Positions 1-31,287 of a stretch of 38,158 bases of DNA are shown in pieces. The translations under genes were made by a program, and so were the position numbers. Position 1 is the first letter of the stretch; every line of letters starts with the position of its first letter. Under the pieces are notes generated by a model. It ran no database searches and was not told the DNA's origin. It saw only the letters and a program-made list of their open reading frames with translations. Source of the stretch: Okeania sp. KiyG1 (GTDB lineage Bacteria; Cyanobacteriota; Cyanobacteriia; Cyanobacteriales; Microcoleaceae); NCBI RefSeq assembly GCF_014132355.1, contig NZ_BLZO01000139.1, positions 1-38,158 of the forward strand. Reading direction: 5' to 3'.

Positions 1-675
1 AACTTTCTTAATTTCTTAATTCGTTTTTTGAGTGGTTTTGGTGCATCAATCTTTGTACCGTCACTCAATGTAGCAAAGGTTTTAATACCTAAATCTATAC
101 CTACTGAATTATCAGTTTTAGGTAAGATTTCTGGTTGTATTTCTACTACAAAACTCAAGAAATATCTAGTAGGGCGATTCGCGTTCGCCTACAATCTTTG
201 ATTACTGTTACTGATGATGGAGCAGTAGGCAATTCTCTTGACCAGACTATTTTCAGCTTTCCAATTTTGGCTAAATAAACTTTATGTTGACCAACTTTAA
301 ACCCACCTTTTGTAAACCTAGCAGTCTGTTTTGATTTTCTACTCTTAAATTTAGGAGGTTTAACAGGTTTACCTTTTCTCTGACCTTTAGTTGATTTGAA
401 AAAGTTTTGATAAGCCTGGTTTAAATCATTTAAAGATTGCTGCAATGGTATAGCAGAAACCTCTGATAACCACTCTCTATCTTCATTTTTTTTAGCCTTA
501 GTAATAAACTGTTTTTGTAGTTGTGAGTTAACAGGCTTCTTCTCTCCTGATTTGTACTTTTCTTGGCAGGAAGCTAGACTATCATTCCAAACCACACGGA
601 CACAACCAAATAGCTTGGCTAATTGGTATTTTGTCCCGGTGTTGGATAGATACGATACTTAAATCTAGCTTTCAT
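1..675 (-). pseudogene. tnpB: TnpB (IS200/IS605 family), copy 1, broken, runs off left edge
   Basis: This is an RNA-guided-nuclease-type accessory protein of IS200/IS605 (IS1341-like) elements. The start ATG at 675 gives MKARFKYRIYPTPGQ, then a one-base loss in an A run (629-632 on the plus strand, four instead of five) shifts the frame. The central part (595 down to about 200) reads cleanly through the basic KPVKPPKFKSRKSKQTARFT segment to SSVTVIKD. A palindromic insert at 169-192 then shifts the frame again. After it the RuvC-I motif GIDLGIKTFATLSDGTK is readable at about 100-50. The C-terminal half, with the other RuvC residues and the zinc motif, lies outside the window. Unlike copies 2 and 3, this copy keeps DLNQAYQNFFKS and lacks the first palindrome. 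No tnpA is present. The gene is nonfunctional as written. Confidence 0.85.
169..192. repeat. Palindromic repeat inside tnpB copy 1
   Basis: A 24-bp imperfect palindrome (GTAGGGCGA...TCGCCTAC) lies at the same coding site, after VIKD, where copies 2 and 3 carry a 28-bp perfect palindrome. This version is shorter and puts the downstream RYFLSF segment out of frame. The shared site suggests one ancestral insertion that later diverged. Confidence 0.7.
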
Positions 676-735
676 AATTTGACTCTTGAACTAACAACAT
701 GATAACGTATCGATTGAAATAAAATCAACCCGTAA

Positions 736-784
736 TAAAAAGTCGCCCGCTTATGGGCGAGGCTTTAAACCCAATTTTTCGGTA
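736..784 (-). mobile_element. Left end (LE) hairpin of the copy 1 IS200/IS605 element
   Basis: The hairpin TCGCCCGCTTATGGGCGA (743-760) is followed by a stretch shared with the copy 2 left end (GGCTTTAAACCCAATTTTT). IS200/IS605 ends are recognised as subterminal hairpins, and this sits about 60 bp upstream of the tnpB start, as expected. The shared sequence runs into the 3' end of the neighbouring small ORF, so the insertion boundary is near 784. Confidence 0.7.
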
Positions 785-1016
785 AATCTTCTTCCAGGAG
801 CATAGAGATATCGGGGTCTAAGAAGACTTTGATTTCTTCTTTGCCTATTTCGATGGAGATGGGGCGATCGCACCCGTAACAAAAACTCCTAATTCCCATT
901 TCAAAATGAGACAATTCTCCTAAGACATCTTCCGGAGGAGCAGCAAATTTTTCTAATAAAGGTTCTCCCCATCTGATTTGAAATTTATGAAGATGTATAT
1001 CGCGTTTTATAATCAC
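765..1016 (-). CDS. Hypothetical protein, 83 aa, 3' end formed by IS left end
   Basis: I do not recognise the family. The protein starts with GTG at 1016; an in-frame TAA a few codons upstream rules out a much longer N-terminus. It is acidic, with a CYGCD cysteine pair near residue 47 followed by a beta-strand-like stretch (PISIEIGKEEIKVFLDPD). The last codons (NWV and the TAA) fall in sequence shared with the left end of the adjacent IS200/IS605 element. The stop is therefore supplied by the insertion and the original C-terminus may have been longer. No convincing ribosome binding site is visible. It has no operon partner, since the next gene on this strand begins about 2 kb away. Confidence 0.5.
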   Translation of the reverse strand: MIIKRDIHLHKFQIRWGEPLLEKFAAPPEDVLGELSHFEMGIRSFCYGCDRPISIEIGKEEIKVFLDPDISMLLEEDLPKNWV

Positions 1017-12544: not shown

Positions 12545-15500
12545 CTATTTGACTTCTTCTTGACACACTTTTAATTTCTCTTTTTCTTGGGGGCGAGTAG
12601 TTAAATATTCTTGCAACCAATCGCATCCTGTTGCTAATAGTTCGTTTAAGTTTTTATTCTGCCAAATAAATACTTTGCTTTGACCAGTTGCTATATATTT
12701 ACCATCGGGGGAAAAGACTATTTTACCTTGATTTTCTTCGGGAATTGTATGTTTAGCAATTTGTTTTCCGTCAAGAGTCCAGATGGTGAATTCATTGGGG
12801 TCTAAAACTGCAATTTGCTGACTATCAGGACTAAAAGCTATCCTAGAAGGAACTTGTAGCAGCTTAATTTCATTAACTAAATTTCCAGAAAAATCCCAAA
12901 TTCTGATTGAATTATCTGTATTAGTTACTGCTAAAAGTTTACTATCAGGACTGAAATCAACAGTGATAATCTCCTCTGGATTATTGATTTCAACCAGTTT
13001 GTTAGTTTTTATGTTTCTTAAGGATAAATTGCTCCCTTTCCACATTGCCAAATATTGACTATCAGGGCTAAATTTTATCCCTTCTGCAGCAAAAAGCGAT
13101 AAATTGGTTATATCATAAACAAATTTTCTCTAAGAATTGTTTTTCCTGCCTTTCAAAACCACGCTCAGAACTCATAAAGTTAATTTTTACAGGAGTACCA
13201 GGTTCTCCCATGAGCAATTTAAATACGTCACTTAAATTGTTAGGAATTTCTTGACCATCTATTGCCTCAATTACGTCACCACTTCTCAAACCTGCTTTCA
13301 TTGCTGTAGAATTTTGGAAAACATCAAGTATGTGTACTTCATAACTACCCGAAATGGTTTTCTTTATTGAACCTGGTACAATAGCTAGCATTGAAACTTC
13401 CTCTTGATTTGAGGAGTGTTTTGCATCAACATCTAGCGGATAGAGCAAATTACCAGAGGTATCCCAAAGTTTAGTTACTAAATCTGTTGAAATAGTCAAA
13501 ATATATTTGCCGTTTGGACTAACTAATACTTGGCGCAAATAACCAAAATTGTTTTTAAACTGCTTGACTTGCTGGGTTGATAAATCCCAGAAGCGCAGGG
13601 GGGGTTGCCCCATAGTAAAAAATCCAATTGTAGCTATTGTGCTGCCATCTAAACTTGAGTTATAGTATCTATGACCAATGTATGTGCCAGCAGACCAAGA
13701 GTGCAAAACTTTTTCCTCTGGACCAATACTTGCTTTTAGTTCAGGAATTAAATTACCTTCTAAATCAAATTTTTGAATGCTTTTTCTAGTAACAATAATT
13801 ATAAATTTTCCATCAGGAGTTATGCTGGCAAAATTACGATTACCAACATTAATTCTTCTTTTTTCTTTTTCTTGCCAATCCCAAATATCTACATAATTCT
13901 TACCATAATCTTTATTGATTACAATAATTTTTTACCATCTGCGCTATACTGCAAATCAATAAAACCTTTTTGTTTCATTTGGTTGATTTCCTTTTCATAG
14001 TCAGCAGGCAATTCTATAAAATCTGATTTAGCTTTGTAATTTAGCAATTTAATGCCCGATAACCCATTAAAAGCAATTGTTTTACTATCAGGACTGTAAC
14101 TGAAGTTAAAGCCTGAAAGACTGTTTGTTGTACTTCGAGGGATGAGCTTTCCAGAGCTAGAATCATAAAATTTGAATGTACCCTGGTTTTTTGTGATTAC
14201 TATAGCAATTTCTTTACCATTGGGGCTAAAACTAACATCACCAAGAAAACCTATAGTGTTTTGGAAAAAATCAATATCTGCAATTGGTTTACCTGATAAA
14301 TCCCAAAGCTTTGCTGCAAGGCCAGGAGTTTTATCTGAATTAATATCAACTCCTAAAGTTAATATTTGCTTTCCATCAGGACTAACAGCTATTTTAGTAA
14401 TTTGATTAGTATTGGCTTTAAATTCTCTAATTTTTTCCCAAGTTTCTAAGTTCCAAAAATGCACTACACCAGAACTATCTCCTATTAAAATTTCTTTGCC
14501 ATTAGGAGTAAACTCCATTGAGGAAAACCAGGACGAATTTTCACGACAAAATGGGGTAAAATTTCCGTAGCTTGAGCCAACCATTGAGGAATTAAACCAG
14601 CAGCAACCAAGGAAGATTTCCCACTACCCGAAGCACCAATAATAGCTACCAAATTTTGCCTTGCCACCTTTTCCAATAAAGAATTAGTCAACACTTTCCT
14701 GCCAAAAAATATTTCTGTATCATTTTCAGTAAAAGCACTCAATCCTTTATAGGGAGATATCTGAATTTTTCCTCCCAACTCCCACCAACGGGGAGGAATT
14801 TCCGCAGGATTTTGACATAAAACAGGCAACCAACTGACACAGGGAAAATCCTTTTCTAATATTTGTAACCTCTGGCGACTCTCCCGCAAAGAACTATATA
14901 AAGATAAACCTTGAGTATAATTTTCTAGAAAATATTGGAGAAACTTTGGAGCAATAACTACAGGCAAATTTTCCCGCATCACAATAATTTGCGGTAAATG
15001 TAAATCCTCACCTTCTGCCAATTGATAAGCCAAACCTAAACCATCACAAGCATTAAAAATTGCCAACTTTAAACCAGACTTAACAGCTTGTAGAAGATGA
15101 TTTTTTATTTCAGAAATAGTCAAAACATCTTGAGCATTAATTTGAATCGTACCAATACTCCCATTATCTTTCGTCTTGCCATGACCAGCAAAAAATAAAA
15201 TATCCCAAGATTGTTGCCATAAAGGTTCATCTAATTCTGTACGTTGAGGTTCTATTAACCAACAAATTTCTGCATCAGGAATTAATTCCCGAATCACCTT
15301 TTCATCAGCATCAGTCCCCGCATCATCTCCCAAAATAACTAAAATTTTTATCTTATCTTTTTGTCTAAATTTTTAGTCGTATCAACTCGTTGAAAATTAG
15401 GAGTAGCTAGAGCAATTTCAGCCTTCGGAAAATCCTTTAAAAATTCCATTCATGCCAAGGCAAACGTCGTAAACCATAATTTTCAGTTGTCAATAAAATT

Positions 15501-15894
15501 CTCGTACTTTCCGATTTATCTAAATAATTCCGAAGCAAAATTTCTATCGGTTGAAAATCGGAGGAACCAAACCAAGTATTGAAAGTTTTGGATAATAAAG
15601 TAGCTGCCTTTTTACAACCTGCAAAAGCTCCATTTTTATCATTATCAGAAATATTAGTAAAACCTGCTTTAGATTTTAAACGATTAGAAAAAAGACATCT
15701 AAATTTGTATATAAACTTTGCCAATGACGATACTGCTCTAAGATTTCTAAATGTGGAGGTAAATGTGCTGACTTACTAGCGATCGCTAAATTAGGTTCAT
15801 TTTTTATCGAATCTACATCTTGCCAAATTTCACCCCGCACCGAAAAACCCTCGTGAAACCCGCCATCAATATTGAGAGTAACTAACTTTCCCAT
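12545..15894 (-). pseudogene. CHAT protease / STAND NTPase / WD40-PDZ-WD40 protein, heavily decayed
   Basis: Starting at ATG 15894 ([20 protein letters not shown]) the gene encodes a large cyanobacterial CHAT-STAND protein. The caspase-like CHAT domain has its catalytic His in DILFFAGHGKT and Cys in LAIFNACDGLG (about 15200-15040). A STAND-type NTPase follows, with PYKGLSAFTENDTEIFFGR and Walker A GASGSGKSS (about 14770-14620). Soon after the P-loop (KIRPGFPQWS) the sequence jumps into WD40 repeats (SPDGKQILTL, SPDSKTIAF), so most of the NTPase is deleted near 14525. The WD40 array is interrupted by a PDZ-like domain (about 13390-13140: GSYEVHILDVF, AMKAGLRSGDVIEAIDGQEI) and resumes to 12545. 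Four frameshifts (near 15690, 15441, 15360, 13930) are each cured by one base in an A/T run; another lies near 13117. Such proteins are predicted to sense invasion and cleave a target. Confidence 0.85.
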
Positions 15895-15944
15895 AACTGC
15901 TCCTAAATTTATCAAAATGATGTACAAGGTAAATGCTGAAAATC

Positions 15945-16003
15945 TTGTGGCGCATGCATCTTGCCTCTTGTGGCGCAGGCATCTTGCCTGCATAGCCCGA
16001 TGG
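15945..16003. repeat. Tandem CATCTTGCC palindrome units
   Basis: Two tandem copies of a CTTGTGGCGCA(G/T)GCATCTTGCC unit lie between the CHAT gene start and the right end of the copy 2 element. The second is a palindrome (GCAGGCATCTTGCCTGC). It belongs to the same family as the unit at 10118. A 23/27 match of the adjacent GTACCTCATAACA segment recurs on the far side of the IS at about 17510. Confidence 0.55.
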
Positions 16004-16558
16004 CTGTACCTCATAACAGTAGAAAGCACTTTGACATCCTCCCCGGCCTAAAGGCATGGGGATTCCTACCGAGCCGTAACTCCTCGGCGGGTTGACGTTT
16101 TGCTTCGCATAGCTGCCGCTAACACTGGCTGCTGCTACCTTGACGCTAGTCTTACGCTTACCTCCACGTCCGTTTAATGTCTCGGACTGCCCGCCCGCAA
16201 CTAATATATTTATCGCTGCATTCTCATCTCTATCATGTTTTGCACCGCAGTTGAGACACTCCCATTCTCGCACCTTAAGGTCTAGCTTGCCACCTTTAAA
16301 GCCACAATTTGAGCAAATTTGAGAAGTAGGTTCAAGGGCGACTAATTACTCTAAAATCGCGACCATATTTTTCTGCTTTTCCTTCTAAGAATGTCCGGAA
16401 TTGTCTCCAACCTAAATCTGATATGGCTCTGGATAATTTACGGTTTTTAACCATTCCAGAAACGTTGTTATACTTCTAAAACAACTGTTTGGTTTTCACG
16501 AATTATTTTAGTAGATAATTTATGTAGAAAATCTGTCAAGCGTATCTTTCAGTTTGGC

Positions 16559-16586
16559 ATGTTTGCGCAGCATTCCGTAGGAAAAC
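16559..16586. repeat. Dispersed unit TTTGCGCAGCATTCCG(T)AGGAAA, read in frame in tnpB copy 2
   Basis: The unit TTTGCGCAGCATTCCGTAGG lies within tnpB copy 2 and adds about nine residues (YGMLRKHAK region) without shifting the frame, where copy 3 has only HG. Other copies: 8061-8090, 18878-18907, and in reverse complement near 24317; a fragment is at 9171. Confidence 0.65.
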
Positions 16587-16824
16587 TTAGCAACTCTTAG
16601 TCTTGCTTTTTCATACCTTTTAGACCCTTTGGTTTTATGAGATAATGACTTACTTAACTTTCTTAACTTCTTAATTCGTTTCTTAAGTGGTTTAGGAGCA
16701 TCAACCTTTGTACCATCACTAAATGTAGCAAAGGTAGATATGCCTAAATCTATACCTACTGAATTATCAGTTTGAGGTAAGATTTCTGGTTGTATTTCTA
16801 CTACAAAACTCAAGAAATATCTAT

Positions 16825-16852
16825 GTAGGGGCGAACGGCCGTTCGCCCCTAC
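16825..16852. repeat. 28-bp perfect palindrome, tnpB site 2 (copy 2)
   Basis: GTAGGGGCGAACGG is followed by its exact reverse complement. It is read in frame as VGANGRSPLH between VIKD and RYFLSF. An identical palindrome sits at the same codon position in copy 3 (30419-30446). Confidence 0.9.
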
Positions 16853-17066
16853 GTCTTTGATTACTGTTACTGATGATGGAGGAGCAGGTAACTCTCTTGA
16901 CCAAACTATTTTCAGCTTTCCTATCTTAGCCAAATAAACTTTATGTTGACCAACTTTAAATCCTCACGAGTGTAAACCTAGCAGTTTGCTTTGACTTTCT
17001 ACTTTTAAATTTAGGAGGTTTAATTGGTCTACCTTTTCTCTGACCTTTAGTCGATTTAAAAAGTTT

Positions 17067-17094
17067 GTAGGGGCAAACGGCCGTTTGCCCCTAC
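17067..17094. repeat. 28-bp perfect palindrome, tnpB site 1 (copy 2)
   Basis: GTAGGGGCAAACGG is followed by its exact reverse complement; one base per arm differs from the site 2 palindrome. It is read in frame as RRGKRPFAPT in place of QAYQ of copy 1. An identical palindrome sits at the same codon position in copy 3 (30176-30203). Confidence 0.9.
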
Positions 17095-17455
17095 GGTTTA
17101 AATCATTCAATGATTGCTGCAATGGTATAGCAGAAACTTCTGATAACCATTCTCTGTCTTCAGTCTTTTTAGATTGCGTGATAAACTTTTTTTGTAGTTG
17201 AGAATTATTGGGTTTCTTTTCTCCCGATCTATACTTTTCTTGACAACAAGCTAGGCTATCATTCCAAACCACACGCACACAACCAAATAGCTTTGCGCTC
17301 TCGGTATTTTTGTCCCGGTGTTGGATAGATACGATACTTAAATCTAGCTTTCATAATTCCTATCTGAACTAACAGTATGATAACATATTTATTGAAATCA
17401 AATCAACTAAAAAGTCGCCATAGAAGGGTGAGGCTTTAAACCCAATTTTTTGGTA

Positions 17456-18244
17456 AGTTAATGAATCCTCAACATTTAAAAAACTGGTTTGCTAAGTGCT
17501 GCTACCGTACCTCATAACAACGGAAAGCGCTGTAATTGTATATTTTAATAATTAGGATTTCAGGTGAATCCCTTCAAATTAAATTTTTCGTATTGGTCAG
17601 CTTGAATTATAGTGCTACAAGCAAATCAAAAATTTCTGCCTGCCTCTACCCTTCAATTTTTGGATACTATCAGAACAAATTTGTCAATAGTTATAATTTC
17701 TTAAGCACCGACACCTGTTCAAAATTAGTTTTTTGAGATTTATTCATCCGTAGAAAGGGTATAAATTTTTGCATCCTATATTGACGAAAAATAGAAGGTT
17801 GTAGCTTTTTCTAGGGAAAATTTCTTATTTTTAAATACAAAATTGGCACAATAAACTATGTATCCATATGATACCAAATCGCTGAAATAACGCAAGTACG
17901 TGAAATATTTTGTAACAATTAGCCGAAATCAGAGATTTTTTTATAAGCAGAAAAAATAATAATAGTTGATTATATTTTTTTACTTATACTTTTGCGTTCT
18001 TGCGGGAAACTGTTTTTTAATTTTGGTCATAGAAGAAAGCGATCGCAACTTCTGGATTTTAAATAGGGAATCAACAGAACAGGTAATTAATTTTGCATAA
18101 GCACTTAAATGGTGAGAAATAGAAGCTGTAAGCAAGGAAATGCTTACTAGAAGCTTATGAGAGTTATATGAGTTTTTTAGTGCAGTAGAAAATCCATACG
18201 AAAAACTTTGGCACAGAATATACAATTAATTTTGCATAAGCACT
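17456..18244. other. Gene-free stretch with a 23-bp direct repeat
   Basis: No credible gene is visible; the short ORFs here lack ribosome binding sites and protein-like composition. AATTAATTTTGCATAAGCAC plus TTA occurs identically at 18085-18107 and 18224-18246, about 140 bp apart, enclosing a CTGTAAGCAAGGAAATGCTTACTAG-type hairpin region. The second copy is immediately followed by the TATAGC MITE. Confidence 0.5.
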
Positions 18245-18373
18245 TATAGCGCTGTGCGCAGGCAACAGGCAACAGGCAACAGGCAACAGGGGGAATAAAT
18301 TGCTGATCATATAAGACTTTTAGCTATTTGGCCTTTCCTGCAATTTGTAAATATACCAGCGCTCATTGCTATA
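18245..18373 (-). mobile_element. MITE with TATAGC termini, 129 bp (copy 2, inverted)
   Basis: The termini TATAGCGCTGTGCGCAGG and CCAGCGCTCATTGCTATA match the element at 3289-3421 in reverse complement, including AAGACTTTTAGCTATTTGG and AATTTGTAAATAT in the interior. It contains a short array of four GGCAACA units instead of the GGAGCTGTTGC pair in the other copy. TA flanks the element, as in Tc1/mariner-type MITEs. Confidence 0.8.
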
Positions 18374-18385
18374 AAGTCAAAATTT

Positions 18386-18718
18386 CTAGTTTACAGAAAA
18401 ATCAGAAAATTGCCGCACAAAAGGCGAACGAAAAGCCAAAACAATATCCGATTTTGGCACACCTAAATCTAATAATTGTTGAGCAATTCCTTGCTCAGTA
18501 AAATCTTGTTGAATCCAAATTTTTCCATCTTTAATATCAACATGAATAGAACAACCATAATCCCGTTGTTCATTTTGCCAACGCAAAGAAATTAAGAGGT
18601 AATGATTTCTTTCCGAATCCAAAATCAGTTGTGTTTCATATTGTGAATCTTGAGTATGATATTGATAGTGTTCTTTAAGTATTTGTGTGACAATTTCTGA
18701 ATAATTTAATCGCTCCAT
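18386..18718 (-). CDS. xisI: XisI-family protein, 110 aa
   Basis: This complete XisI paralog starts MERLNYSEIVTQILKEHYQY and continues with ETQLILDSERNHYLLISLRW, YGCSIHVDIKDGKIWIQQDF, EQGIAQQLLDLGVPKSDIVL and a closing FRSPFVRQF. The CxIHxDIKDGKIWIQ core is the family hallmark. XisI proteins pair with XisH, are needed for fdxN-element excision in Anabaena, and elsewhere have unknown, possibly toxin-antitoxin-like roles. Its ATG lies inside the 3' end of xisH (13-base overlap), so the two are coupled. Because xisH is broken here, this gene is probably an orphan. The MITE at 18245 ends 12 bp after its stop. Confidence 0.9.
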   Translation of the reverse strand: MERLNYSEIVTQILKEHYQYHTQDSQYETQLILDSERNHYLLISLRWQNEQRDYGCSIHVDIKDGKIWIQQDFTEQGIAQQLLDLGVPKSDIVLAFRSPFVRQFSDFSVN

Positions 18719-19147
18719 AAAACAATTACCTCTTCTAAAGGATCGAAAATTAATAATTTAACTTGATAGGTACTTACAGAAAGTTTAATAAAAGAGTCAT
18801 TTCAGTTATCAGTTATCAGTTATCAGTACCTTGTAGCTGTTGCATCGGGATAGCTGATAGCTAATAGCTGACGGCTGTTTGCGCAGCATTCCGGAGGAAA
18901 TGCTTACTAAGAAATTGACCAAGAGCAGTATGAAATTCTGCCAAGGGTGACATTGACAAAAAACTTTTAATTTCTACTGCTATTATTTGACCATCTTTTT
19001 CTGCACCAATAGCTCGTTCGCCACCTATATCAATGTATAAAGATATTTTAGTGCTAGGCTTAATAAATAGAGGATCGTCCGTAATTTTCCAACCATCTTT
19101 GATTAAAGCTGATGTAACAGCATGATGAAAAAGTCTTTAGCTGGCAT
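18706..19147 (-). pseudogene. xisH: XisH-family protein, broken by a frameshift and a repeat insertion
   Basis: XisH has an endonuclease-like fold and acts with XisI. From ATG 19147 the sequence reads MPAKDF, then one T is missing (A5 at 19128-19132 on the plus strand) and the frame changes to HHAVTSALIKDGWKITDDPL, FIKPSTKISLYIDIGGERAI, GAEKDGQIIAVEIKSFLSMS and PLAEFHTALGQFL, with the E-I-K-S strand typical of the family. At about 18908 a block of dispersed repeats (18785-18908, TTTGCGCAGCATTCCGGAGG plus CAGCTATTAGCTATCAGC-type units) interrupts it. The C-terminal end resumes as LSVSTYQVKLLIFDPLEEVI and VLWSD, stopping at 18706 inside xisI. Two independent lesions suggest true decay. Confidence 0.85.
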
Positions 19148-19171
19148 AACTTTAAAATAAATCTAATTTAA

Positions 19172-20241
19172 TTAAATAACAAAATCCTCCGTAATTACGG
19201 CTTCATCTAACACTAATTTTACCGTAAATTCTTCCCCTACTTCTCCTGCAAATTTACATTGAATAATCCTATCTTCACTTCTAGCAGTAACTTCTTGAAA
19301 AACTTCATTTTCACTTAAAACAATCAATTTCAAATTAGGAGGAAGATAAACATTATCCCTAGTGGGATAAACCCGTAAAGTTATTTCTACTTCAGGAAGA
19401 TCATCATCTTCTCGTCTTAAATTGACCAATAAAACTACAGCATGACTTAACATATTTGCTCGTAAATCAATTAACTTTCCAGCTTTAATTTCTGCACTTC
19501 TAACTAATGCTAATTGTGAAGGAGTTAATAATTCATTTGCTCCTTGCCATCCAGATGTCAAAATATACTCAAACCATTGAGTTAAATTAACCTGACTAGG
19601 CATGATTTCTACATCTATAATAGGAACACCTAATCTATCTGAAAGTAAACCTTGTTGGTGCAAAGATTCTATTTGCTCGCAAGCAGATTGAGAACCTTTT
19701 AAATGCAAAATTATACTACCCATTTTAATTTCCACTACCCTAAGATAAGGACATCCTGTTATCGCCCTCACTTTGTTCTCAATTTCTAACAATTGTTTTG
19801 CTGAAACATCATCGGGTATTCTAATTAATAAACTTCTTTCTTTTTCAAAATTAGGAGGTTGAGGTTGCTTTCTATATTGAGAATTAAATAAATGAAAAAT
19901 GATATCTTGAGGATTACCAATTTCTTGTTTCAGCAATTTTTGTAAGCAAAAATGAATACCTTTTTTTCTTTTATCATTACTTAGTTTAGTCCTGAGAGAA
20001 TCAACTGATGAAATATCTTCCAGTTCAGCCACCATATCCGGAAGTTGTTTCCCTACTAATACCATTAATAAATACTGCTTGTGAAATTTGGTTAAACCTT
20101 CTCCTATTGGCGGGTATTGTTCTCTAATTTTTCTAAGTCATAAATTAAATTATTAACATTCCAACTAGCTTGAGCTTCAGCATAAAAGTTATAATTAATT
20201 AAATCTTGAATAAATTTATAATTACTTGCAGTTTGATTCAT
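19172..20241 (-). CDS. DUF1822 family protein, split by one frameshift
   Basis: The C-terminal half matches DUF1822, a cyanobacterial family of unknown function often found near CHAT or STAND signalling genes: VNLTQWFEYILTSGWQGANE, AGKLIDLRANMLSHAVVLLV, VYLPPNLKLIVLSENEVFQE and the ending VKLVLDEAVITEDFVI. The middle part (RIPDDVSAKQLLEIENKV, MGSIILHLKGSQSACEQIES) looks like the small alpha/beta domain that precedes effector modules in such proteins. The N-terminal part (ATG 20241, MNQTASNYKFIQDLINYNFY) is in another frame; adding one A at the T5 run 20128-20132 (plus strand) joins it as YDLEKIREQYPPIGEGLTKF. The joined protein is about 356 aa. Without that base, translation could only begin internally near 20065. 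It neighbours a small glycine-rich hydrophobic protein and xisHI. Confidence 0.8.
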
Positions 20242-21021: not shown

Positions 21022-22317
21022 TCAAATACCTAATCTTTGATACACATCATCCAAATGTTTTAAATGATGTTTCGGGTCAAAACAAGCTGCAATTTCTGCC
21101 TCAGATAACCTACTTTTAATTTCTTCATTCTTGCAAATTAAATCCTGAAAATTACCATTAGGTTGATTCCAAGCTTGATGAGCGCAAGACTGAACAATTT
21201 GATAAGCATCCTCTCGAATCATCCCCTTTTCTACTAAAGCCAAAAGCACTCGCTGACTAAAAATCACCCCTCCATAAACATTCATATTTCGCTTCATGTT
21301 TTCTGGATAAACTAACAAATTTTTGACTAAATTAGTAGTTTCTTTGATCATAAAATGAGTTAAAATGCAAGCATCAGGCAAAATCACTCTTTCAACAGAA
21401 CTATGAGAAATATCCCGTTCGTGCCAGAGAGCAACATTTTCCAAAGCAGCAACAGCATGACCCCGCACAATTCTCGCCATTCCCGTTAACCTCTCCGAAC
21501 GAATGGGGTTACGTTTGTGAGGCATTGCACTCGATCCTTTTTGACCCTTAGAAAAATATTCCTCAACCTCTAAAACATCAGTACGCTGAAGGTTACGAAT
21601 TTCCACAGCAAAACGTTCTATAGAAGCAGTCAGCAACGCTAAAATTTGCACATACTCAGCATGGCGATCGCGTGAAATTACTTGAGTAGATGCAGTATCC
21701 GGTTGAAGTCCCAGTTTTTGGCAAGCGATCGCCTCAACTCGTGGGTCAATATTTGCATAAGTTCCCACTGCTCCAGAAATCTTACCCACAGCAATATTAT
21801 CCCGCATTTTTACCAATCTCTGGCGGTTCCGACAAACCTCTGCCAACCATCCTGCCAACTTAAAACCAAAAGTCATAGGTTCCGCATGAATACCGTGGGA
21901 ACGACCCACCATCACAGTTTCCCGATGCTGTTGTGCCTGATAGCGAATTGCTTGTCCCAACTCTTCAACACATGACAACAATAAATCTAGACTCGCAACC
22001 ATCTGCAATGCTAATGCAGTATCCAAAACATCGGAACTTGTCAACCCTAAGTGAATATACCGCCCAACATCACCAACATATTCATTCACATTTGTCAAGA
22101 AAGCAATCACATCATGGCGGACTTCTGCCTCAATTTCCAGAACCCGTTTTGGGTCAAAATTAGCCTTGGCCTTGATTTCTTCTACAGCCTCAGTAGGTAC
22201 ATAACCAAGTTCTGCCTGAGCTTCACAGACAGCTATTTCTACTTCTAACCAAGTTTTTAGCTTGGCATTCTCAGTCCAAAGTTCACCCATTTCGGGCAAG
22301 GTGTAACGTTCAATCAC
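21022..22317 (-). CDS. purB: Adenylosuccinate lyase
   Basis: This homotetrameric purine enzyme cleaves SAICAR and adenylosuccinate, releasing fumarate. Its 431 aa are full length. The fumarase/aspartase superfamily signature GSSAMPHKRNP (residues 261-271, flexible catalytic-Ser loop) is exact. Other active-site elements are GLTSSDVLDTA (91-101), the general-acid His in GRSHGIHAEP (His141) and the N-terminal RYTLPEMGELWTE typical of PurB. The gene starts with GTG at 22317 (MIERYTL); no earlier in-frame start is plausible. It is monocistronic, uninterrupted, and flanked by mobile DNA on its 5' side. Identification is secure. Confidence 0.97.
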   Translation of the reverse strand: MIERYTLPEMGELWTENAKLKTWLEVEIAVCEAQAELGYVPTEAVEEIKAKANFDPKRVLEIEAEVRHDVIAFLTNVNEYVGDVGRYIHLGLTSSDVLDTALALQMVASLDLLLSCVEELGQAIRYQAQQHRETVMVGRSHGIHAEPMTFGFKLAGWLAEVCRNRQRLVKMRDNIAVGKISGAVGTYANIDPRVEAIACQKLGLQPDTASTQVISRDRHAEYVQILALLTASIERFAVEIRNLQRTDVLEVEEYFSKGQKGSSAMPHKRNPIRSERLTGMARIVRGHAVAALENVALWHERDISHSSVERVILPDACILTHFMIKETTNLVKNLLVYPENMKRNMNVYGGVIFSQRVLLALVEKGMIREDAYQIVQSCAHQAWNQPNGNFQDLICKNEEIKSRLSEAEIAACFDPKHHLKHLDDVYQRLGI

Positions 22318-25346: not shown

Positions 25347-25453
25347 GTACGGGCGAACGGCCGTTCGCCCCTACTCCCCTACTCCCCCACTCCCTACTCC
25401 CCTACTCCCCTACTCCCCACTCCCCTACTCCCCTACTCCCCACTTCCCCACAT
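25347..25453. repeat. 28-bp palindrome followed by CTCCCCTACTCCC tandem tract
   Basis: GTACGGGCGAACGG followed by GCCGTTCGCCCCTAC-type sequence (25347-25374) is one base from the tnpB palindrome but lies between genes. It runs into a simple CTCCCCTACTCCC tract (25375-25447) that reaches the Anbu gene end. The same tract, inverted, is at 36775-36910. Confidence 0.8.
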
Positions 25454-29790: not shown

Positions 29791-30175
29791 TTGATATATT
29801 CTCCGACCTATTTTGACCAGAAAAATGGGTTTCAAGCCTCGCCCTTCTAGGGCGACTTTTTAGTTGATTTTTGTCTATAAATATGTTATGATATTATTAG
29901 TTTGAACGTCAAGTTATGAAAGCTAGATTTAAGTACCGTATATATCCAACCCCGGGACAAAAATACCGATTAGCCAAGCTATTTGGCTGTGTCCGTGTGG
30001 CGAGTGAATGATAGTCTAGCTTACTCCCAACAGAAGTATAAATCAGGAGAAAAGAAATCTGACTTATCAGAACTACAAAAGCTTTTTATTACTCAAGCTA
30101 AAAAGACTGAATGCAGAGAATGGTTGTCAGAGGTTTCTAATATACCATTGCAGCAATCTTTGAATGATTTAAACC

Positions 30176-30203
30176 GTAGGGGCAAACGGCCGTTTGCCCC
30201 TAC
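30176..30203. repeat. 28-bp perfect palindrome, tnpB site 1 (copy 3)
   Basis: Identical to 17067-17094: GTAGGGGCAAACGG and its reverse complement. Read as RRGKRPFAPT with no frame loss. Confidence 0.9.
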
Positions 30204-30418
30204 AAACTTTTTTAAATCAACTCAAGGCAAGAGAAAAGGTAAACCTGTTAAACCTCCTAAATTTAAAAGTAGAAAGTCAAAGCAAACTGCGAGGTTTACA
30301 AAGGGAGGATTTAAAGTTGGTCAACACAAAATTTATTTAGCCAAGATTGGAAAGCTGAAAATTGTATGGCCTGTGAGAATTACCTACTGCTCCATCATCA
30401 GTAACAGTAATTAAAGAC

Positions 30419-30446
30419 GTAGGGGCGAACGGCCGTTCGCCCCTAC
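30419..30446. repeat. 28-bp perfect palindrome, tnpB site 2 (copy 3)
   Basis: Identical to 16825-16852: GTAGGGGCGAACGG and its reverse complement. Read as VGANGRSPLH with no frame loss, in a different phase from site 1. Confidence 0.9.
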
Positions 30447-31069
30447 ATAGATATTTCTTGAGTTTTGTAGTAGAAATACAACCAGAAGTATTACCTAAAA
30501 CTGATAATTCAGTAGGTATAGATTTAGGTATTAAAACCTTTGCTACATTTAGTGACGGTACAAAGGTTGATGCTCCTAAACCACTTAAGAAACGAATTAA
30601 GAAGTATCAAAAGTTAAGTAAGTCATTATCTCATAAAACTAAAGGCTCTAAAAGGTATGAAAAAGCCAGGATTAGAGTAGCTAAATTCCATGGCAAACTG
30701 AAAGATACAAGAACTGATTTTCTACATAAATTATCTACTAAAATAATTCGTGAAAACCAAACAGTTGTTTTAGAAGATTTAAACGTTTCTGGAATGGTGA
30801 AAAACCGTAAATTATCCAGAGCAATTTCTGATTTAGGTTGGAGACAATTCCGGACATTCTTAGAAGGAAAAGCAGAAAAATATGGTCGTGATTTTAGAGT
30901 AATTAGTCGTTGGGAACCGACCTCTCAAATTTGCTCAAATTGTGGCTTTAAAGGTGGAAAATTAGACCTTCAGGTGCGAGAGTGGGAGTGTCTCAACTGT
31001 GGTGCAAAACATGATAGAGACGAGAATGCAGCAATAAATATATTAGTCGCGGGCGGGCAGTCCGAGACA

Positions 31070-31120
31070 AAAAAGCGCACCGAACCCGAGCCGCCGAAAG
31101 GCGCAAGGGAACGCGGAGCA
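31070..31120. repeat. 51-nt in-frame insertion in the tnpB copy 3 C-terminus
   Basis: Copy 2 reads [11 protein letters not shown] while copy 3 reads SETKK...RGARNGRGGKR, a net gain of 17 residues. The inserted DNA (AGCGCACCGAACCCGAGCCG, then CCGAAAGGCGC) is far more GC-rich than its surroundings. No second copy of the whole segment is visible in the window. Confidence 0.65.
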
Positions 31121-31287
31121 AGAAACGGACGTGGAGGCAAGCGTAAGACTACCGCCAAGGTAGTAGCAGTCAATGTTAGCGGAGCTATGCGTCAGCAAAG
31201 TGTCAACCCACCGAGGAGCTTAGGCTCGGTAGGAATCCCCGTGCCTTTAGGCCGGGGAGGATGTCAATGTCGCCGACATATTTACGG

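Follow-up and report, generated by a model that had tools for sequence, protein, structure and literature searches.

Double-foot GTAG REP palindromes at the same nucleotides of many tnpB genes in Okeania, with replacement of target bases

Palindromes of 28 bp occupy the same two tnpB nucleotides, here named site 1 and site 2, in many separate tnpB lineages of Okeania sp. KiyG1 and its relatives. In the stretch of DNA analysed (38,158 nucleotides of strain KiyG1, referred to as the window), they are replacements rather than simple insertions, 28 bp having been gained and 10 bp (site 1) or 7 bp (site 2) of the target lost. This pattern is probably explained by recurrent insertion of palindromes of the double-foot GTAG REP type at fixed targets in tnpB, where they were tolerated as neutral passengers. 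In-frame REPs as such are already known, but among the open-licence articles listed by our searches (supplementary files aside) there were no published REPs in tnpB, no target replacement and no recurrence at the same nucleotide, and the repeated, position-exact occurrence of REPs in TnpB, with target replacement, is thus apparently new. The way in which REPs insert is made testable by the tnpB paralogues and their matched empty copies: they form a natural series in which the REP target, the bases lost and the outcome for the reading frame can be read per base. In addition, natural TnpB variants with peptide inserts, found beside insert-free relatives, are useful for mapping tolerated positions in small RNA-guided nucleases.

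The palindromes of the window and their family

The window contains three tnpB elements, whose inserts are given below together with a related palindrome outside them.

29808..31267, plus strand: tnpB element copy 3 (IS605 OrfB type), pseudogene
30176..30203: site 1 palindrome of copy 3, GTAGGGGCAAACGGCCGTTTGCCCCTAC, peptide RRGKRPFAPT, net +18, 10 target bp replaced
30419..30446: site 2 palindrome (type A) of copy 3, GTAGGGGCGAACGGCCGTTCGCCCCTAC, peptide VGANGRSPLH, net +21, 7 target bp replaced
16030..17457, minus strand: tnpB element copy 2, pseudogene
17067..17094: site 1 palindrome of copy 2 (tnpB on minus strand)
16825..16852: site 2 palindrome of copy 2 (tnpB on minus strand)
16560..16584, minus strand: second micro-repeat of copy 2, 21-nt unit TCCTACGGAATGCTGCGCAAA, peptide SYGMLRK, net +21
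1..785, minus strand: tnpB element copy 1, truncated by the window end, pseudogene
169..194 (approximate extent), minus strand: site 2 relic of copy 1, GTAGGCGAACGCGAATCGCCCTAC, net +17
25347..25374, no strand assigned: near-identical palindrome with GTAC as one foot, not within the tnpB elements

In a sequence-only reading of the window, copies 2 and 3 had each been assigned a perfect 28-bp palindrome at two common codon positions. All four are indeed perfect, 28 bp long and so placed; the translations given in that reading, RRGKRPFAPT for QAYQ and VGANGRSPLH after VIKD, are correct. DNA alignment with the uninserted copy C180 gives net lengths of +18 at site 1 and +21 at site 2, as follows from the loss of 10 and 7 target bases. 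It should be noted that copies 1 and 2 are broken elsewhere too, as is copy 3, which has frame changes near amino acids 28/29 (about 29995-29999) and between amino acids 148 and 162 (about 30377-30408). Because the window copies are pseudogenes through these other breaks, the inserts keep the frame locally but not across whole genes. Site 1 of copy 1 is empty, as had been read. Its site 2 relic, which had been taken as an earlier variant, breaks the frame (+17), and its boundaries match those of the other site-2 palindrome (GATTCGCGAATC type, with a 1-bp shift); it is no evident precursor of site 2 in copies 2 and 3. Positions 13844-20143 of the window are 99.95% identical, over 6.3 kb and on opposite strands, to positions 18700-25000 of contig C138 of the same genome (G000), and the pair is either a duplicated segment or an unmerged contig overlap; as contigs C138 and C139 share at least 6.3 kb, one copy with site 1 and site 2 is counted twice in several counts, and it was dropped from the 78-row tree discussed below.

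The palindrome has GTAG as its 5' foot and CTAC as its 3' foot, the combination that characterises double-foot GTAG REPs, and its hairpin folds with -13.4 kcal/mol (z -5.1). A search of its own genome with the palindrome pattern gave 56 mismatch-free places, against 0 for a reversed-pattern control, so that the palindromes are not due to chance; with up to 3 mismatches the number rises to 132. The palindromes are therefore a dispersed multi-copy family, and palindromes of this type are present in 9 of the 40 genomes searched, the own genome included. The Rfam scan of the window gave 0 matches at the gathering score. The own genome also has 165 tnpB-like matches, obtained from 150 scored of 510 candidate stretches, and 32 of 55 own-genome palindromes, in a set that is enriched for tnpB loci, are flanked on both sides by parts of one TnpB match; a further copy, C198:44044, is outside these 55. 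Genome G001 has 57 palindromes of the form GTAGGGGC-N12-GCCCCTAC, and 21 of the 25 listed are exactly of the GATTCGCGAATC type. Site-1 junctions without mismatch number 17 in G000 (one counted twice via C138/C139), 3 in G004, 2 in G002 and 0 in G001, G003 and G005; the corresponding numbers for site 2B, the second type at site 2, are 15 in G001, 6 in G000, 3 in G004, 1 each in G002 and G003, and 0 in G005. A search of genome contigs, possibly lacking the own-genome records, returned the site-1 junction in one record, Okeania sp. SIO2C9.

Several intergenic palindromes of the own genome (e.g. C71:64911 and C106:56676) are enclosed centrally by a larger palindrome that is imperfect (TACACCATCT..AGATGGTGTA). 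At the homologous intergenic positions L130:2037 and C89:14221 two different palindrome types are found, as if one had replaced the other. The small dispersed repeats of Nostoc, reportedly described by Elhai et al. in 2008 as very small, mobile repeats of filamentous cyanobacteria with nested insertions, are similar by description.

Recurrence at the same nucleotides and loss of target bases

The distribution of the inserts was mapped on a tree of clade A tnpB sequences built with the site columns removed (78 rows; an earlier version had 80), from which C84 was excluded because its site-1 left edge is fused to its site-2B right edge. Site 1 is occupied in 17 of the 78 rows and requires 12 changes on the tree, site 2A has 14 carriers and 11 changes, and site 2B has 6 carriers and 6 changes, with the caveat that tnpB sequences may recombine. 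A single origin by descent, with the site-1 carriers as one clade, was rejected (p-AU 1.3e-7). The order proposed in the sequence-only reading, site 2 first, then site 1, followed by spread of the double form, is not supported: copies with site 1 only and with site 2 only are both found, the site-1 carriers are no clade, none of the double-insert copies examined is intact, and deriving the order from copy 1 is ruled out by the relic, whose boundaries are those of the other palindrome type.

Related tnpB copies can differ by the insert alone, and the members of such pairs keep their own flanks (L195/L225, 2.7% apart; C118/L146, 5.6%; C198/L228, 5.7%). More than one palindrome type is found at either site: several at site 1, and at site 2 two whose boundaries differ by 1 bp. 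The palindromes are less variable than their flanks: all 11 un-nested site-2B palindromes are identical and their left flanks are about 16% apart (15 comparable pairs), and the 14 un-nested site-1 inserts come in two forms that differ by one paired change. Pairs of palindromes can also delete the stretch between them: at C84:583 in the own genome, the site-1 left edge and the site-2B right edge have been brought together by a deletion and the interval is missing, as if the two palindromes had recombined.

Instead of recurrent insertion, each palindrome might have entered tnpB a single time and then spread among the paralogues by short-tract gene conversion. This would fit the scattered states, the frame-shifting alleles that are common to distant copies, and the insert combinations, which resemble exchange; moreover, carriers coexist in G000, G004 and G002, and the set of tnpB copies is incomplete, which leaves room for an unseen donor. 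Nevertheless, we regard this explanation as unlikely in view of the flanks. For C118, C198 (copy at 21499), C172 and L230, the longest flank identity to another carrier is at most 34 nt, whereas identity to the nearest empty copy extends over 68+15, 81+21, 197+164 and 76+3 nt, respectively; in the case of C172 the empty copy is L250 (the A run at the junction aside), and the longest flank match to any other carrier compared is 22+3 nt. Single entry followed by conversion is also at odds with the different palindrome types at one site and with the occupation of site 1 in clade B (L240), a clade that is about 65% identical at the protein level.

Replacement of target bases extends beyond the window. 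An empty relative was available for 46 of the 105 query palindromes, which by our grouping represent 13 sites, and 8 of these 13 groups lost 7-11 bp, in coding and in non-coding DNA (site 1, site 2A, the clade B 3' end, clade D, C174, the C46 group, L113 and L126). Clade C lost 4 bp; the alignments of L108, L120, L122 and L129 are weak or of low complexity and can be read as a loss of as little as about 0 bp; and C110 gives -4 via a poor alignment. A palindrome in a glutamate synthase gene (L062) has a net length of +9, with about 19 bp lost, and 5 of 5 sister species are empty at this place. By eye, AGCT or GCTA is among the bases lost at site 2, clade C, the clade B 3' end and L126, and AAGCTT is present at site 1 in some copies; neither AGCT nor GCTA was seen among the lost bases at clade D, site 3, the glutamate synthase gene and C46. 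We therefore treat AGCT/GCTA only as a lead to a possible target motif.

Reading frame and intact carriers

The three phases of the palindrome read VGANGRSPL.,.RGERPFAPT and a third that contains TAG, which means that just two phases can stay open and explains why two are observed. Intact TnpB ORFs with an in-frame palindrome are present in the own Okeania genome and in a sister species. Among them are C118 (410 aa; site 1), C479 of G003 (site 2, other palindrome type), and C53 (447 aa) and C89 (434 aa), which have a palindrome at a third site, and it is these four that substantiate the idea of protein-coding palindromes in a many-copy cyanobacterial mobile element; for the intact carrier L219 the frame is 444 codons from stop to stop. 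The intact carriers found are single-site only, and 0 of the double-insert (site 1 plus site 2) copies examined are intact. Some palindrome-carrying tnpB ORFs are intact and under purifying selection: the dN/dS ratio is 0.12 between the two site-3 carriers, although the value of 0.23 for C118 versus its nearest empty copy exceeds that of insert-free pairs (0.06-0.13). The TnpB proteins have OrfB_IS605, Cas12f1-like TNB and HTH domains above cut-off and the TnpB fold, in structure models of middling confidence (mean pLDDT 69 and 63).

The claim that neither site breaks the frame stands for the window copies (+18 and +21) but not in general. In L230 (G004:C79), a site-1 palindrome of +19 is the sole break found and both halves are otherwise readable; site 1 is likewise +19 in C172 and C198. 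In L240, a tnpB of clade B, site 1 is occupied by a different palindrome type; 8 bp were lost, the net length is +20 and the two halves of the gene are in different frames. The clade D copies C67 and C172:14089 are also +20. In C174 the length is +21 but the phase is that with TAG, and the palindrome stops an otherwise continuous TnpB frame. The nine TnpB cases that could be scored are site 1 (+18), site 1 (+19), site 1 in clade B (+20), site 2A (+21), site 2B (+21), site 3 (+18), clade C (+24), clade D (+20) and C174 (+21, TAG phase); the C68 palindrome is outside them, being too diverged from any relative examined. Net lengths based on tblastn are off by one compared with DNA alignment where frame changes adjoin, and sister tnpB loci were partly picked as long or intact, which makes carrier fractions among them meaningless.

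The sequence-only reading had proposed to set in-frame palindromes against the 1:2 ratio expected by chance. By our count, 6 of the 9 TnpB cases have a net length divisible by three, and 5 of the 9 are open as well; the former figure gives P=0.04 for at least 6 of 9 versus an expectation of 1/3 (binomial, calculated by hand, for cases chosen post hoc). Selection for frame is thus supported weakly at best, and frame keeping seems to be in part a matter of fixed footprints and in part of survival, with no rule. The same count would suit pure chance survival, in which insertions land at random and what is seen is limited to in-frame cases in tolerant loops, as it indicates that frame selection is weak at best. 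We consider this very improbable, since random insertion gives no reason to expect that one nucleotide is used repeatedly, with loss of the same bases, pseudogenes included. Hardest of all to credit is that the palindromes are kept, like those of Rickettsia, because the added peptide is useful to TnpB: intact in-frame carriers exist, and intact TnpBs from clades A, B and D also contain several unrelated micro-repeats in frame, in part at shared positions, but the same site has out-of-frame occupants (L230, C172, C198, L240), the C174 site is in the TAG phase, many carriers are pseudogenes and the same palindromes also occur outside genes.

As to these micro-repeats, the 21-nt TCCTACGGAATGCTGCGCAAA repeat (SYGMLRK or close variants) is in frame at several positions of intact TnpB ORFs; its loci, besides that of the window (16560-16584), are L009, L204, L219, L198, L203, L200-L202, L196 and L197, and one insertion position is common to clades A and B. 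Longer repeats coding KRCDPATTPVARERAPR or KRTEPAPPKGARERGAR are in frame in the intact TnpBs of L095, L218, L153, L222 and L223, and other copies have a related form of 53 nt that is not in frame. The in-frame presence of other micro-repeats, chiefly the 21-nt unit, at several TnpB positions means that the tolerance of TnpB at certain positions matters too.

In L035 and L039, clade B tnpB seems to end at a stop codon provided by the TAG in the foot of a palindrome at its 3' end. Outside tnpB, in-frame palindromes are found in a ferredoxin-type glutamate synthase, named as such from its sequence, directly before the N-terminal Cys-Gly-Val motif (L062:3083-3110), in a 3585-codon open frame of the own genome (L056:3028-3055), and in a 747-codon ORF of G029 that resembles a DNA methylase or restriction enzyme (L141:1997-2024).

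RAYT transposases and related systems

RAYT (tnpA-REP) genes of Okeania and of other genera have palindromes of this design beside or within them. GTAG palindromes occur at 9 of the 31 RAYT-like loci examined; 7 of these loci have one within 250 bp of the ORF (L187, L188, L256, L258, L263, L266 and L267) and 6 have one inside the stop-to-stop frame. None was seen at the other 22, among which L280 had no ORF found and L262 is partly masked. In the own genome, a 213-codon Y1 transposase ORF (C94:142491-143084, PF01797) contains a window-type palindrome in frame, 18 residues past the start of the HuH motif. L186 (G002), L256 (G038) and L258 (G007) have palindromes in the same loop, those of G038 and G007 being of other types, and L188 has a degenerate one; in L266 the internal palindrome precedes the HuH motif by about 104 residues and may be upstream of the true start. 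The RAYT L187 of G001 is flanked by a GATTCGCGAATC-type palindrome, and RAYTs that look alike by eye have the same palindrome type across genera (L187/L266, GATTCGCGAATC; L188/L263, GACGTTGCATGCAACGTC). L185 matches PF01797. The motifs read from the alignment are NHLH/NHFH/NHIH, WQ and YI.ENP or YI.NNP, compared with NH[IFV]H, WQ and YIxNNP in subclass 2.4. Between RAYT presence and palindrome number there is only a loose relation: G005, with 3 palindromes, gave no RAYT match. The C94 RAYT as sole mobiliser is unsupported, as neither G004 nor G005, both of which have palindromes, contains a close copy of it.

According to the excerpted text of PMC6006769, genes of tnpA-REP subclass 2.4 are accompanied by double-foot REPs and have REPs inserted in frame between HuH and Y; TnpB carriers are absent from that text. 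The palindromes described here resemble these in having a GTAG foot with its reverse complement at the other foot and in their occurrence in cyanobacteria; they differ in lying in TnpB genes, at fixed nucleotides, and in mostly replacing 7-10 bp of target. Intragenic copies of cyanobacterial GTAG REPs and use of the foot as a stop codon are reported in the excerpts of PMC3733652. The likeness to GTAG-12/15/16 of that article comprises the GTAG tag, the cyanobacterial hosts, peptide-coding intragenic copies, insertion in larger palindromes and the TAG of the foot as stop codon; for GTAG-15/16 the comparison is one of descriptions rather than of consensus sequences, and TnpB and target replacement are absent from these excerpts. 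The parallel that had been drawn with Rickettsia palindromic elements (RPE) applies to behaviour, as these are also palindromes fused in frame into protein genes, but excerpts of PMC2229807 give them a length of 105-146 bp, a rickettsial distribution and no known dedicated transposase, compared with 28 bp and Okeania here, and those of PMC3733652 give a CGTC tag for R. conorii instead of GTAG feet. The palindromes thus share in-frame insertion into protein genes with RPE, but not the Rickettsia host, the CGTC tag or the length, and the double-foot GTAG REPs of RAYT transposases are the closer match.

We infer that insertion takes place by a RAYT-type single-stranded DNA (ssDNA) reaction at a preferred target. 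Double-foot GTAG REPs would be non-autonomous substrates of RAYT (Y1/HuH) transposases, and a RAYT or similar ssDNA process would insert the hairpin at a preferred sequence present in every tnpB paralogue, which would make the tnpB family an array of identical landing pads. The 28-10 and 28-7 footprints would be multiples of three by coincidence; products that are in frame in tolerant parts of TnpB would persist as neutral passengers carried along by the element, and the others would end as pseudogenes. Tentatively, and with clear doubt, this may be taken further, to REP hairpins that home into TnpB, a RAYT-type ssDNA transposase replacing 7-10 bp at a fixed target recurrently across paralogues and species. 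If homing is true, a selfish REP/RAYT system marks the genes of its IS605 relatives, and the RNA-guided nuclease is sometimes inactivated and sometimes decorated.
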